Shown: positions 15,180 through 42,204 of the stretch, in pieces
Numbering within the stretch: position 1 is the stretch's first letter
Layout: each line of letters opens with the position of its first letter
Source of the DNA: an uncultured Pelagibacteraceae bacterium
Lineage (GTDB): Bacteria; Pseudomonadota; Alphaproteobacteria; Pelagibacterales; Pelagibacteraceae
DNA: 64,000 nucleotides
NCBI GenBank assembly: GCA_902587095.1
Contig: CACIJY010000001.1
Span: 186,001 to 250,000 of the forward strand
Reading direction: 5' to 3'
The notes under the pieces: model-generated
The model's input: only the letters and a program-made list of their open reading frames with translations
What the model was told of the DNA's origin: nothing
Databases searched by the model: none
Position numbers and translations under genes: made by a program

Positions 15180-15185
15180 ATTTAA

Positions 15186-15362
15186 ATGAATTTTATGAGT
15201 CTGGAGGTAATAGTGCCAGTAATAGCCTTAATAGGCGTACTAGTGCTAGTTTTGCCTGGTTTTATTCAAACTAATTATAGCTTTAAGATCCTAATTAAGA
15301 ATTTATCAATATGGATTATAGTGATAGCTGTAATATTAATATTTATATATTTTATATTATAA
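15186..15362 (+). CDS. Small membrane protein, 58 residues, two hydrophobic segments
   Basis: Below the ORF-track length limit. It begins ATG six bases after the dnaJ stop and encodes MNFMSLEVIVPVIALIGVLV and onwards to a TAA at 15360-15362. Two hydrophobic segments (about residues 7-27 and 40-58) are joined by a short polar turn QTNYSFKILIKN, suggesting a helical hairpin in the inner membrane. Start could also be the Met at residue 4. I do not recognise a family. Its place right behind dnaJ on the same strand suggests co-transcription with the chaperone genes. Confidence 0.6.
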   Translation: MNFMSLEVIVPVIALIGVLVLVLPGFIQTNYSFKILIKNLSIWIIVIAVILIFIYFIL

Positions 15363-15369
15363 ATAATAA

Positions 15370-15549
15370 TTAATTATTTTCAGTGCAGATATCCTTGATA
15401 ACTGGAACACTTGAGCAGTCACCACATTTAGTTACTTGAACTAAACAACCACTATCAAGTAATTTTACATCAACAACTCTATCGCATTTAGAGCATACTG
15501 ATGAAATAGTTAATCCACATTTTTTACAACTAAATTTTTGTGTTTGCAT
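15370..15549 (-). CDS. Small zinc-ribbon-like protein, 59 residues
   Basis: Too short for the ORF track. The reverse strand reads MQTQKFSCKKCGLTISSVCS, then KCDRVVDVKLLDSGC and VTKCGDCSSVPVIKDIC. It has eight cysteines; the CKKCG, CSKC and CGDC groups look like paired CxxC metal-binding knuckles of a zinc ribbon. No function is recognised. The stop is 8 bases from the stop of the convergent small membrane gene. Its upstream region carries the first of two Fur-box-like palindromes, so it may be metal regulated together with, or instead of, dapB. Confidence 0.68.
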   Translation of the reverse strand: MQTQKFSCKKCGLTISSVCSKCDRVVDVKLLDSGCLVQVTKCGDCSSVPVIKDICTENN

Positions 15550-15592
15550 AAGTAAAAGATAGGAAATTAAAAATATTATTCAAGAAATAACG

Positions 15593-15598
15593 TATAAT
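15593..15598 (+). promoter_or_regulatory. Candidate -10 element upstream of dapB
   Basis: An exact TATAAT hexamer followed 2 bases later by the first Fur-like palindrome. No good -35 hexamer is seen at 17 bases. A start site near 15605 would place the first palindrome over the transcription start, a usual position for repression. In so AT-rich a sequence this hexamer alone is weak evidence. Confidence 0.35.
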
Positions 15599-15600
15599 AT

Positions 15601-15615
15601 TGATTATCATTATCA
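15601..15615. promoter_or_regulatory. Fur-box-like operator 1
   Basis: TGATTATCATTATCA is a 7-1-7 inverted repeat with one mismatch to TGATAATNATTATCA, the classic Fur operator core. It sits between the divergent zinc-ribbon gene and dapB. A Fur/Mur-type regulator is encoded at the start of this window. Confidence 0.65.
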
Positions 15616-15660
15616 CAAAAAAACCAATTAAAAACATCTCTTTAAAAAAATCTTTATGAA

Positions 15661-21085: not shown

Positions 21086-21087
21086 TA

Positions 21088-21119
21088 GGGGCGTTCTGTT
21101 GCCAGGTGCCCCAAACCCC
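21088..21119 (-). other. GC-rich structured element, GNRA-capped hairpin
   Basis: Read on the minus strand: GGGG-UUU-GGGGC-AC-CUG-GCAA-CAG-AAC-GCCCC. The outer stem GGGGC/GCCCC, an internal loop AC/AAC, and an inner 3-bp stem CUG/CAG capped by GCAA (a GNRA tetraloop) make a compact RNA hairpin in the 3' region of the 68-codon gene. The upstream GGGG could compete for the same CCCC. No U-tract follows on either strand, so it is not a standard terminator. It also occupies nearly the whole gap after the GDSL gene stop. Identity unknown to me. Confidence 0.55.
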
Positions 21120-21126
21120 AAAGAAT

Positions 21127-21333
21127 TTATCCCTTAAACATTTCTAATGCTTTATTAAGAAGATCTACTGATTTTTTGTGTTCACCACTGTCGTGAGCCT
21201 TTATTCCAGCATCTCTTAATTCTTGAGCTTCTGCAATTTTTGCATCAAGGTTTTTTGCCATCATTGGGCATGAACCTGCAAAAACAGAACTCGAAAATAA
21301 TACAAAAGATAAAATTAACGCTAATTTTTTCAT
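21127..21333 (-). CDS. Small periplasmic protein of unknown function, 68 residues
   Basis: MKKLALILSFVLFSSSVFAG is a clear signal peptide with cleavage after SVFA; the mature part of about 49 residues is GSCPMMAKNLDAKIAEAQEL then a helical stretch with DAGIKAHDSGEHKKSVDLLNKALEMF, which resembles a single TPR-like helix pair. One Cys remains in the mature protein. Codons include more preferred forms than the neighbours, hinting at good expression. It stands alone, with a structured GC-rich element immediately 3'. I do not recognise a named family. Confidence 0.82.
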   Translation of the reverse strand: MKKLALILSFVLFSSSVFAGSCPMMAKNLDAKIAEAQELRDAGIKAHDSGEHKKSVDLLNKALEMFKG

Positions 21334-21443
21334 TGTTTTCCTTTCGTTTACTTGGATATGGTTATTTATTTATAATTTTTAAGCAACAGAGTGTCACACT
21401 TATTAAGCTATAAAACTATATGTAATAAATATATATAGTCTGC

Positions 21444-32523: not shown

Positions 32524-33155
32524 ATTTTTTTTAAATTATTAATTTTTACAATCACTGAATTGGCATCTGTTAAACTTTTTACAATTTCATAATCAAACTT
32601 CCATGATTTTAAACATTCATTAATGCTATCTCTGCCACTTTTTCCTAAGAAAAGTATTAATCTGTTATAGTGAGCAAAATTTTTATTTATTAATTCTAAT
32701 ATTGTTTGAAGTGGTTTAAATGCTCTAGCTACTATTATGTCTGCCTCTAATTCTTTCTCTTCAAAAATATTTTTTTGTTTTACCTCAGCGTTTAATTCGA
32801 AATGCTTGATCATCTTCCTTAAAAAGTTACTTTTCTTCAGACTTTTCTCGTAAAGTTCAAATTTTATTTTTGACCCTTTTTTTTTACAAATAATTGCTAA
32901 TACTACGCCTGGAAGGCCAGAACCTGACCCTAAATCTAAACAAGTTTTAGTATTTTCATCAATAATTTCAATAATTTGCGCTGAATCTATTATATGTCTT
33001 TTTATTGTGTCTTTCTCAGTTGATTTGCTAATTAAGTTTATTTTTTTGTTCTCGCTCAATAACAATGATCTGAACTCATCTAAGGCTGGAAATGTTTCAC
33101 GTGAAACGTTTAATGTTTCTAATTGAGAATATTTCTTAAAATTTGATTCGATCAA
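32520..33155 (-). CDS. rsmG: 16S rRNA (guanine527-N7)-methyltransferase RsmG
   Basis: Methylates G527 of 16S rRNA using [23 protein letters not shown]-type text near the N terminus (here [20 protein letters not shown]) and [20 protein letters not shown] (motif I, SAM binding) are diagnostic; [20 protein letters not shown] and [13 protein letters not shown] follow. 211 residues. A parS site is embedded in the codons for [10 protein letters not shown] near the N terminus, so this coding stretch also serves chromosome segregation. Overlaps mnmG by 4 bases at its start and parA by 4 at its end. Confidence 0.96.
33093..33108. other. parS: parS centromere site
   Basis: TGTTTCACGTGAAACG matches the bacterial parS consensus TGTTTCACGTGAAACA at 15 of 16 positions, with a perfect 14-bp palindromic core GTTTCACGTGAAAC. 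It lies inside rsmG, near parAB. It is the only such site I see in the window. Confidence 0.95.
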
Positions 33156-39099: not shown

Positions 39100-40097
39100 T
39101 TTTTAACCAAATATGAATACACTAAGTGTTGAAGTAAATTAATATGGTCTTCATTGTCGTTTAAACATGGAATTAGATCAAAATTTTCACCACCTGAATC
39201 GATAAAAGTTTCTTTTCCTTGTATCGCAATCTCTTCTAATGTTTCTACACAATCTGATGCGAAACCGGGGCAAATAACCAATATGTTTTTTTTTCCTTGT
39301 TTTGGAATTTCTTCTAAAGTTTTATCAGTATAAGGTCTAAGCCATTCCTGTGGTCCAAACCTTGATTGAAATGTTGTTATAATATCAATGCTTTTAAACT
39401 TTTCTTTTAGAAGTCTTGTCGTTTTCATGCAATAACAATGATATGGATCTCCTTTTTCAAAATATTTTTTTGGTATTCCGTGGTAAGATGCAACAATTAA
39501 ATCTGGTTTCCAGTTGATTTCGGAAATTTTCTTTTTAATTGAATTAACAATTGCATCTATATAGAGAGGGTTTTCTTCGTAGTGAGATACGATTTGAAGG
39601 CTGGGCTGCCACCTTAAGCTCATTAAAGATCTAAATACTTCGTCACAAACAGTTGCGGTTGTTGGCGATGCATATTGAGGGTAAAGAGGTAATATTATCA
39701 AATTTTCACAGCCTTTTTCTTTAAGGTCTTTAATTTTTCCCTTAATACTTGGTGACCCGTATCTCATCGCAAAGTCTATTATTAGATTTTCCATATTAGA
39801 TTTTTTTGATAATTTTTCAGTTTGCATCATCGTATAGTATCTAAGCGGAGACATGTTCTTATCTTTCATCCAAATTTCTTTATAAGCTTTTGCTGTTTTG
39901 GAAGGTCTAAATGTTAGTATGAAAAGATTTAATATTATTTGCCACAGAAATGGGTTAACCTCTATAACTCTTCTATCAGATAAAAATTCTTTTAAGTATT
40001 TTCTTATATCGAACCAACTGGTGCTATCTGGGGTGCCAAGATTGATTAGCAATACTCCTGTTTTTCCATAGTTAACTTTTGGGTGATTTTCATTCAT
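39096..40097 (-). CDS. hemH: Ferrochelatase
   Basis: Inserts ferrous iron into protoporphyrin IX. KTGVLLINLGTPDSTSWFDI is the family N terminus; IVASYHGIPKKYFEKGDPYH carries the active-site His and ends in the conserved GDPYH; FQSRFGPQEWLRPYTDKTLE is the porphyrin-binding signature; CPGFASDCVETLEEIAIQGK has the conserved Glu cluster and Cys. 333 residues. Overlaps both hemE and hemJ by 4 bases. Confidence 0.98.
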   Translation of the reverse strand: MNENHPKVNYGKTGVLLINLGTPDSTSWFDIRKYLKEFLSDRRVIEVNPFLWQIILNLFILTFRPSKTAKAYKEIWMKDKNMSPLRYYTMMQTEKLSKKSNMENLIIDFAMRYGSPSIKGKIKDLKEKGCENLIILPLYPQYASPTTATVCDEVFRSLMSLRWQPSLQIVSHYEENPLYIDAIVNSIKKKISEINWKPDLIVASYHGIPKKYFEKGDPYHCYCMKTTRLLKEKFKSIDIITTFQSRFGPQEWLRPYTDKTLEEIPKQGKKNILVICPGFASDCVETLEEIAIQGKETFIDSGGENFDLIPCLNDNEDHINLLQHLVYSYLVKK

Positions 40098-41095
40098 GAG
40101 TAATTTTTAACCAATTTAACTAAATAATCTACCATACCTGGGTCAGTATTCGGTAATACACCATGACCAAGATTAAAAATATACGGTTTATCCTTAAAAA
40201 TATCTAAATATTTTTTAACATTTATTTCTAATTCCTCTTTGCTACCAATTAAGAAATTTGGATCTAGTCCTCCTTGCACCGTTATATCTATAGTTTTTGA
40301 GATTAACATTGGGTCAACATCATAATCTATACTAATTACATTTGGATTAACTGCACCAACATATTCTTTATAGTCCTTAATTCCTTTTGGAAAACATATG
40401 GCTGGAGTTTTTTTCGATTTCACAAAGTCCACAAGATCTTTGGTGGGTTTATATATGTATTTTTCATAATCTTTTTTATCTAAAAGACCTGCCCAACTAT
40501 CAAATATTTGAATTATTGTTGCACCATTATTAATTTGGTTTTCAATATGAATTTTAAGGAATTTAATTATAATTATTAATAAATCATCAATAAATTTTTT
40601 GTCATTGACATTAATATTTAATTTTTCATTTTTTGGAGACTTTCGATTTAACATATAGACAAGAATTGTCCAAGGAGCCCCGACAAATCCTATTAGATCT
40701 TTATCTTTTATTTCGTCTTTATCTTTTGTTTTATGTATAGCGTTATAAACTGGTTTTAATTTGTTCACAAATTCAGACTCTTGTACATTGGAAATTTTAT
40801 TAAAATTTATTTCACCCAACATTGGACCAAAATCTTTCTTAAAATTAACAGTTTGGCCTAGGGCATGAGGGACTAACAAAATATCAGAGAATATTATTGC
40901 TGCATCTATGTCAAATCTTTTTAATGGTTGTACCGTAATTTCAGAAGATAAATTTTCATTTAAACATAACTTTATAAAATCTTGGTTATTTTCCCTAATT
41001 CTTCTGAATTCTGGTAAATATCTACCTGCTTGTCTCATAAGCCATATACAATTACCATTAGATTTCTTTTTTATACATTTCTGCAAAACAGTCAT
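40094..41095 (-). CDS. hemE: Uroporphyrinogen decarboxylase
   Basis: Removes four carboxyl groups from uroporphyrinogen III. WLMRQAGRYLPEFRRIRENN is the diagnostic N-terminal motif with the substrate Arg pair; FVGAPWTILVYMLNRKSPKN and IQIFDSWAGLLDKKDYEKYI follow; FNLGHGVLPNTDPGMVDYLV ends the protein with the conserved GHG. 333 residues. First gene of the hem run. It borders the 284-base gap that I propose as oriC, as hemE does in Caulobacter. Confidence 0.98.
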   Translation of the reverse strand: MTVLQKCIKKKSNGNCIWLMRQAGRYLPEFRRIRENNQDFIKLCLNENLSSEITVQPLKRFDIDAAIIFSDILLVPHALGQTVNFKKDFGPMLGEINFNKISNVQESEFVNKLKPVYNAIHKTKDKDEIKDKDLIGFVGAPWTILVYMLNRKSPKNEKLNINVNDKKFIDDLLIIIIKFLKIHIENQINNGATIIQIFDSWAGLLDKKDYEKYIYKPTKDLVDFVKSKKTPAICFPKGIKDYKEYVGAVNPNVISIDYDVDPMLISKTIDITVQGGLDPNFLIGSKEELEINVKKYLDIFKDKPYIFNLGHGVLPNTDPGMVDYLVKLVKNYS

Positions 41096-41379
41096 AATAA
41101 TAGATTAAGTAATATTTATATTATTTGTATTAGAGTTGTTAATATTGAATATTACTATTTTCTAACACTTTTATAACATTTTTTTCACAATTAATTTCTT
41201 TAAATAAATCATAAAAAATAAGGATGATAGTGATTAATATAATTTTATTCAAAAATCTATATATTGGTTATAAACATGTTTAATAATGTTATTAAAAAGC
41301 CTTTTTTTTATTTTAGATGATAGAATTTGCAAGTTTGTTTATAAATTAATATTAATACAAAAATCTTTATTAATTATAC
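41096..41379. other. oriC: Candidate chromosomal replication origin (oriC)
   Basis: A 284-base gap without an ORF, the largest empty gap in the window, between hemE (leftward) and the PpsR-type gene (rightward) that heads the maf-aroE-coaE-dnaQ run. The same junction holds the Caulobacter origin, and the order is shared by other alphaproteobacteria. The sequence is almost pure A/T with tracts such as TTTTATAACATTTTTTTCAC. Two inverted DnaA-box-like 9-mers, TTATAAACA, occur at 41268-41276 (+) and 41336-41344 (-), each two mismatches from TTATCCACA. The location is established by synteny; the boxes are my inference. Confidence 0.65.
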
Positions 41380-42204
41380 ATGAGTAATACATATGAAATT
41401 TATTTAGTCTCAGATTCAACTGGTGAGACGCTTGAGAGGATATTTCTTGCTATAAAGGCCCAGTTTAAAAATTTCAATTATAAAACACATTATTTTTCAT
41501 TTACGCGAACTGAAAATCAGATATTAAAAATTATAGAAAATTCCGTAAAAAATAAGAATTCTATTTTTCTATATACAATAGTTGATAATAAACTTGCTCA
41601 ATTTTTATCAACAGAATGTAATAAAAAAAATATTCCATGTTTTGGAGTTTTGGGAGACCTTATTTTAACCTTTTCAAAATTATTAAATCAAGAAGCTAGC
41701 CACATCCCAAGTGGACAACACGTTATGAACGAGGACTATTATAAAAAAATTGAGGCTATACAATTTACGATGAACCATGATGATGGAAACTCATTAGAGG
41801 ACATAGGCAAATCAGATATAATCTTATTAGGAGTTAGTAGAACTAGCAAAACACCTACTTCAATTTATTTAGCTAACAAAGGTATGAAAATTTCAAATAT
41901 ACCACTGATTAACGAACAATCAGTTCCAAAATCTCTAAAAGAAAAACCGAATTGCACCTGCATTATAGGTCTAACAGCTGAACCCGATAGGTTGGTTGAT
42001 TTAAGAAAAAATAGGATGCAATCGATAAAGGAAAATGAAAATAAAAATTATATAGATTTTGATAAAATTAAAAACGAAATAGAAACTTCAAAAAAATTGT
42101 TTCAGAAATACAATTGGCCATCCATAGATGTTACAAGAAAGTCAGTTGAAGAAACTGCAGCCTCTATATTAAAAATACACGATATATTTAATCAAAATGA
42201 ATAA
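41380..42204 (+). CDS. ppsR: PpsR-type bifunctional kinase/pyrophosphorylase (DUF299)
   Basis: Regulates PEP synthase or pyruvate phosphate dikinase by ADP-dependent phosphorylation and phosphate-dependent dephosphorylation of a Thr. YEIYLVSDSTGETLERIFLA is the family N terminus, HYFSFTRTENQI follows, and the nucleotide loop is ILLGVSRTSKTPTSIYLANK. KIRKNRM-like text near the C terminus reads DLRKNRMQSIKENENKNYID. 274 residues. Whether the target is PpsA or PpdK cannot be seen here. It overlaps maf by 8 bases and is the first rightward gene from the proposed origin. Confidence 0.93.
   Translation: MSNTYEIYLVSDSTGETLERIFLAIKAQFKNFNYKTHYFSFTRTENQILKIIENSVKNKNSIFLYTIVDNKLAQFLSTECNKKNIPCFGVLGDLILTFSKLLNQEASHIPSGQHVMNEDYYKKIEAIQFTMNHDDGNSLEDIGKSDIILLGVSRTSKTPTSIYLANKGMKISNIPLINEQSVPKSLKEKPNCTCIIGLTAEPDRLVDLRKNRMQSIKENENKNYIDFDKIKNEIETSKKLFQKYNWPSIDVTRKSVEETAASILKIHDIFNQNE

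Follow-up and report, generated by a model that had tools for sequence, protein, structure and literature searches.

Between hemE and ppsR lies an A/T-rich intergenic stretch of 284 bp (41096-41379, no strand assigned) that is very probably the replication origin (oriC) of a SAR11 bacterium. It would be positionally orthologous to the Caulobacter origin Cori and to the Rickettsia origin, and DnaA would load there on an array of mostly weak boxes. Position, conservation and box geometry make this putative oriC well supported, not proved, and by class it is putatively a hemE-type oriC of the Alphaproteobacteria whose array of boxes is specific to the lineage. The analysis shows the anatomy, the conservation, the enrichment and geometry of the boxes, the position on the skew curve, the linkage to parS and the unchanged DNA-reading motifs of DnaA. 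Four parts of this reading are ones that we infer: DnaA binding, the melting site, the weak affinity and the origin activity. The preliminary description had proposed a candidate origin at this junction, and the proposal is supported by the GC-skew plateau of a related chromosome (G012), the conserved length of the gap and the fixed positions of its boxes.

The window, the whole 64-kb stretch of DNA that was analysed, is contig 1, positions 186001-250000, of a draft genome of 871 kb in 27 contigs. Those of its relatives to which public records give a name are single-cell genomes of Pelagibacteraceae (SAR11). The gap is flanked by hemE (40094-41095, minus strand, PF01208) and ppsR (41380-42204, plus strand, PF03618), the latter a COG1806/DUF299 kinase-PPPase gene and by family a homologue of RP001. 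The gap has a GC content of 14.4%, compared with 24-34% in 2-kb windows of the 64 kb, so its A+T content is above that of the genome and the earlier wording, extremely A/T-rich, holds. Calling it the largest gap without a gene was also fair: the two ORF-poor stretches that exceed it in length (15180-15655 and 21086-21443) both hold plausible short genes, while none was found in the gap. An Rfam search of 40800-41700 gave no match, and neither did phage records.

By Pfam, the leftward block consists of parB, parA, rsmG, mnmG, mnmE, rho, hemJ, hemH and hemE, and the rightward block of ppsR, maf, aroE, coaE and dnaQ. This confirms that the gap splits two gene sets, as had been described, except for one rightward gene. 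That gene, with a sulfotransferase domain (PF00685, 36498-37331), lies between mnmE and rho and breaks the leftward block. The parS centromere site that had been placed 8 kb away was found at 33093-33108 (plus strand, TGTTTCACGTGAAACG, one mismatch to the palindrome), 8.0 kb from the gap. A single homologous parS site adjoins mnmG in G012 and in G061, a 966-kb contig of a closer relative.

The hemE-ppsR junction was present in all 77 relative loci in which both genes were readable. COG1806 flanks Cori, and the origin lies at the hemE-COG1806 junction in Caulobacter, by experiment, and in Rickettsia, by prediction (PMC1914354). That this junction carries the Caulobacter origin had been noted; the orientation of the flanking genes is also the same. 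The likeness to Caulobacter crescentus Cori (hemE - COG1806/CC0001) extends to the A/T-rich region, several weak DnaA sites, a dnaA gene that is not adjacent and a parS about 8 kb off. Caulobacter parS lies within 8 kb of Cori, which uses tuned weak DnaA sites, the G- and W-boxes (PMC4468827). The SAR11 gap differs from Cori in length (284 versus 404 bp), in A+T content (86% versus 44%), in its A/T-shifted boxes (TTATNAACA) in place of G-boxes, and in showing no enrichment of CtrA or IHF sites. CtrA sites (TTAA-N7-TTAA) were absent from our gap and numbered 60 in 72 distinct gap sequences, where 42 (sd 9.8) were expected; such sites are not seen in origins outside a limited group (PMC4468827). 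IHF sites were likewise absent from our gap, and the loose consensus was not enriched overall (19 versus 26.8 expected); the strict consensus occurred 12 times across the gaps versus 5.6 expected. The predicted Rickettsia origin (hemE-RP001; PMC1914354) shares the junction and is itself very A/T-rich (82%). It is, however, 383-396 bp long, and CtrA sites were looked for there and served as a criterion, whereas the SAR11 gaps measure 261-289 bp and are not enriched in CtrA sites.

Since our assembly was too fragmented for a skew test, we used G012, a complete chromosome of the same genus (1,343,202 bp). Its cumulative GC skew peaks at 0.616 Mb, and its minimum is a broad plateau at about 1.225-1.315 Mb. 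The hemE-ppsR gap, at 1.262 Mb, is inside this plateau and roughly opposite the maximum. The skew value at the gap is -3127 versus -3253 at the minimum (detrended, -1381 versus -1510), and the numerical minimum is 29-31 kb away. When the chromosome was divided into twenty equal bins starting from the gap, skew was positive in nine of the first ten and negative in nine of the second ten, so the gap divides it into a positive-skew and a negative-skew arm. The G012 skew thus supports an origin in the gap region, with a resolution of only some tens of kilobases. The skew check proposed in the preliminary description was run on relatives: the G012 plateau, though broad, includes the junction, and G061 has a wide, noisy trough whose minimum is some 219 kb away from the gap. 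Skew alone is not decisive because of this G061 result. Over G061 and over the window's own 289-kb contig GC skew was too noisy for placing the origin.

We next compared the gap with its homologues, the 72 distinct sequences coming from the 77 loci. Their lengths range from 261 to 289 bp; the majority fall at 278-289 bp, and a small number at 261-272 bp. The DnaA-like box TTATNMACA, that is TTATN(A/C)ACA, occurs 198 times in these gaps versus 13.3 expected from dinucleotide shuffles (maximum 26 in 200), an enrichment of about 15-fold, and control 9-mers reached 0.4- to 3.5-fold. At least one TTATNAACA is present in every gap, and this form is more frequent than the canonical TTATNCACA (156 versus 42). 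The canonical box is kept in 34 of the 72 congeneric gaps, is absent from our own and is almost missing from our own clade. The preliminary description had expected an origin with no consensus box or with a lineage-specific one; our gap lacks TTATNCACA, other members keep it, and the box array is specific to the lineage. In G012 the hemE-ppsR gap is the top 284-bp cluster of TTATNMACA genome-wide. On our own contig, at about 113 kb and outside the window, there is another cluster with three strict TTATNAACA within 284 bp. The CcrM methylation site GANTC is depleted in the 72 gaps (8 versus 22 expected, sd 6.7), and GATC showed no clear enrichment in them.

The boxes occupy fixed positions. On the hemE side the family layout has one reversed box about 42 bp from hemE and three forward boxes with 11-bp spacing at about 64, 75 and 86 bp. 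The ppsR half has one forward box about 112 bp before ppsR and a reversed one about 20 bp further on. One or two more boxes are located just before ppsR in the family and are degenerate or absent in our gap. Relatives strongly keep both gap length and box positions, the conservation that the preliminary description had asked to be checked.

Our gap contains two exact boxes and five degenerate sites, with one or two mismatches, at family positions. Box R1 (41137-41145, minus strand, ATATTAACA; TTATTCACA or TTATTAACA in most relatives) is at alignment column 53, where 46 of 72 gaps are exact and ours has one mismatch. The first of the 11-bp-spaced three is the degenerate F2 (41159-41167, plus strand, TTTCTAACA; column 75, exact in 18/72), with two mismatches here. 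It is followed by the degenerate F3 (41170-41178, plus strand, TTTATAACA; column 86), exact in three gaps and invariant in 16/16 nearest relatives, and by F4 (41181-41189, plus strand, TTTTTCACA; column 97, exact in 18/72, one mismatch here), the third of the phased set. F5 (41268-41276, plus strand, TTATAAACA; column 191), 112-114 bp from ppsR, is exact in 39/72 gaps and has 8/9 positions invariant in the nearest clade; it is our only exact match at the family positions. The reversed R6 (41287-41295, minus strand, TTAATAACA) is at column 211, exact in 26/72 and with one mismatch here.

The two inverted TTATAAACA copies that had drawn attention to the gap are both real, with 0.07 expected in shuffles, but only the copy at 41268 is a genus-wide site. 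The other (R7, 41336-41344, minus strand) is exact only in the 11 nearest relatives and is lost in some of the same clade; it is lineage-specific, not a family site, and counts as weak evidence. Their reading as degenerate DnaA boxes was right in kind and is refined here to TTATN(A/C)ACA at about eight fixed family positions, rather than two copies of TTATAAACA.

When the family positions were shifted along our gap, none of 275 shifts was as good as the true placement (mismatch sum 14 versus 39.3), and the same test placed 72/72 gaps at or below 2%; these shift tests are partly circular, since the aligned box columns were chosen from the same gaps, ours included. Conservation of the degenerate sites in the 16 nearest relatives provides a second line of support for fixed box positions: box columns have 78% invariant positions versus 45% elsewhere, and 0/287 shifts were as conserved. 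Part of the conservation of the gap may come from the divergent promoters of hemE and ppsR.

Beside hemE we found a candidate DnaA-trio or unwinding element (41113-41136, minus strand), which reads 5'-ACT-CTA-ATA-CAA-ATA-ATA-TAA-ATA-3' from box R1 towards hemE and whose complement consists of 3'-GAT/TAT-5' repeats. In the basal unwinding system (BUS), DnaA-trios are 3'-GAT/TAT-5' on the complement, and the criterion is three or more NAN trios no further than 16 bp from a DnaA box, with 3'-GAT-5' preferred (PMC8287927). In-phase [AC]TA per 24 nt averages 3.88 across the 72 gaps versus 2.03 in shuffles, in which the mean never exceeded 2.23, and our gap has five. The columns overlapping the element are among the most conserved of the gap. 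The longest in-frame NTN run was not above chance (2.93 versus 2.83 in shuffles; ours runs for two and is then interrupted), and the element therefore remains a candidate. It resembles the BUS (PMC8287927) in having a DnaA box, a 3-5 bp spacer and in-phase trinucleotides at an A/T-rich edge, whereas the trios of the window's clade are interrupted (CAA) and mostly TAT, and unwinding here is only a candidate function.

Support for the element comes from a sister family of the same order. Three genomes of its genera g3 and g4 carry CTACTACTA(CTA) at the trio place, with 3-4 consecutive in-phase CTA, a near-perfect 3'-GAT-5' array as in the BUS. No ppsR match was found in 24 sampled genomes of this family (loci L163-L167 and L218-L238), and PF03618 was absent from an essentially complete one (G037). 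Instead, in all 21 genomes in which hemE was found, its neighbour on the other side of a 271-286 bp gap is maf. The gap has survived the loss of ppsR, and this speaks against its being no more than a promoter region for ppsR. The sister family has few exact TTATNMACA boxes, 10 in its 21 gaps. The box rule therefore holds at the level of the genus, and the proposed homology of the gap across families rests on the junction, the gap length and the trio-side element.

A very unlikely explanation is that the gap is only a divergent promoter or regulatory region of hemE and ppsR, its motifs being promoter or transcription-factor sites. The flanking genes are indeed divergent, a conserved A/T-rich TATAC lies directly before ppsR, and the trio-like element is close before hemE, at a possible place for a -10 box. 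A promoter and terminator scan, however, showed no excess, with sigma-70-like sites at chance level (5 versus 5.2 expected). Promoters would not account for a DnaA box enriched 15-fold on both strands, at eight fixed places over some 280 bp of near-constant length, for the same length where maf replaces ppsR, or for the skew plateau. The origin may share the gap with a hemE promoter, as it does in Caulobacter, and this promoter may overlap the trio-like element. We consider it extremely unlikely that the origin has another location, such as the vicinity of dnaA some 62-74 kb off, with the gap serving as a DnaA-regulated promoter or a DnaA titration site. Such a location could draw on the breadth of the skew minimum and the uninformative skew of our own contig, but parS and parAB lie 8 kb from the gap, the gap is the top DnaA-box cluster of G012, and the G012 dnaA (1.199 Mb) falls outside the plateau of 1.225-1.315 Mb. 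In our genome dnaA occupies 157-159 kb of the contig, which puts 70 kb between it and the gap, and is followed by a 370-aa ORF that by its look is a candidate dnaN.

The abundance of TTATNAACA over TTATNCACA and the near loss of the canonical box from our own clade could also mean that the gap is an origin whose DnaA has evolved a new specificity and prefers TTATNAACA. This is unlikely: when domain IV of the protein is aligned with 1J1V, the structure of E. coli DnaA on DNA, its DNA-reading motifs RPRQ, SLPEIG and RDHTTV are unchanged, and canonical boxes persist in 34 of the 72 gaps. Given the unchanged motifs, the boxes are best read as low-affinity variants, and the C-to-A change at the sixth position of the box would most simply mean that A/T pressure has lowered affinity, without a new code. 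It is possible, and we suggest it tentatively, that this streamlined origin depends solely on A/T-drifted boxes of low affinity that geometry keeps in place (fixed spacing and 11-bp phasing), with no consensus box and no CtrA or IHF, so that position replaces sequence.

As an oriC, the gap would work as follows. DnaA would load on an array of some six to eight boxes, mostly weak, whose positions are fixed: the box beside hemE points at that gene, three more are phased by 11 bp, and two form a pair in the half towards ppsR. Starting at the box nearest hemE, a filament of DnaA would grow along the neighbouring DnaA-trio-like strand and open the A/T-rich DNA on the hemE side, and helicases would then be loaded in both directions.

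Among the papers searched, none describes a SAR11 oriC. Few cells in the ocean are as abundant as SAR11 bacteria, and estimating growth from metagenomes requires the replication start site. With an oriC that is fixed and alignable and has a box rule specific to the lineage, the origin could be placed in draft single-cell genomes, including those of families without ppsR. The SAR11 gap would also be a compact test of DnaA function with weak boxes. The hemE gene itself (40094-41095) has low identity among close relatives, 65% to AG-426-E17 and 72-81% within the clade, and its neighbours are better kept (rho 98%, hslU 95%, mnmG 93% and ppsR 85%).
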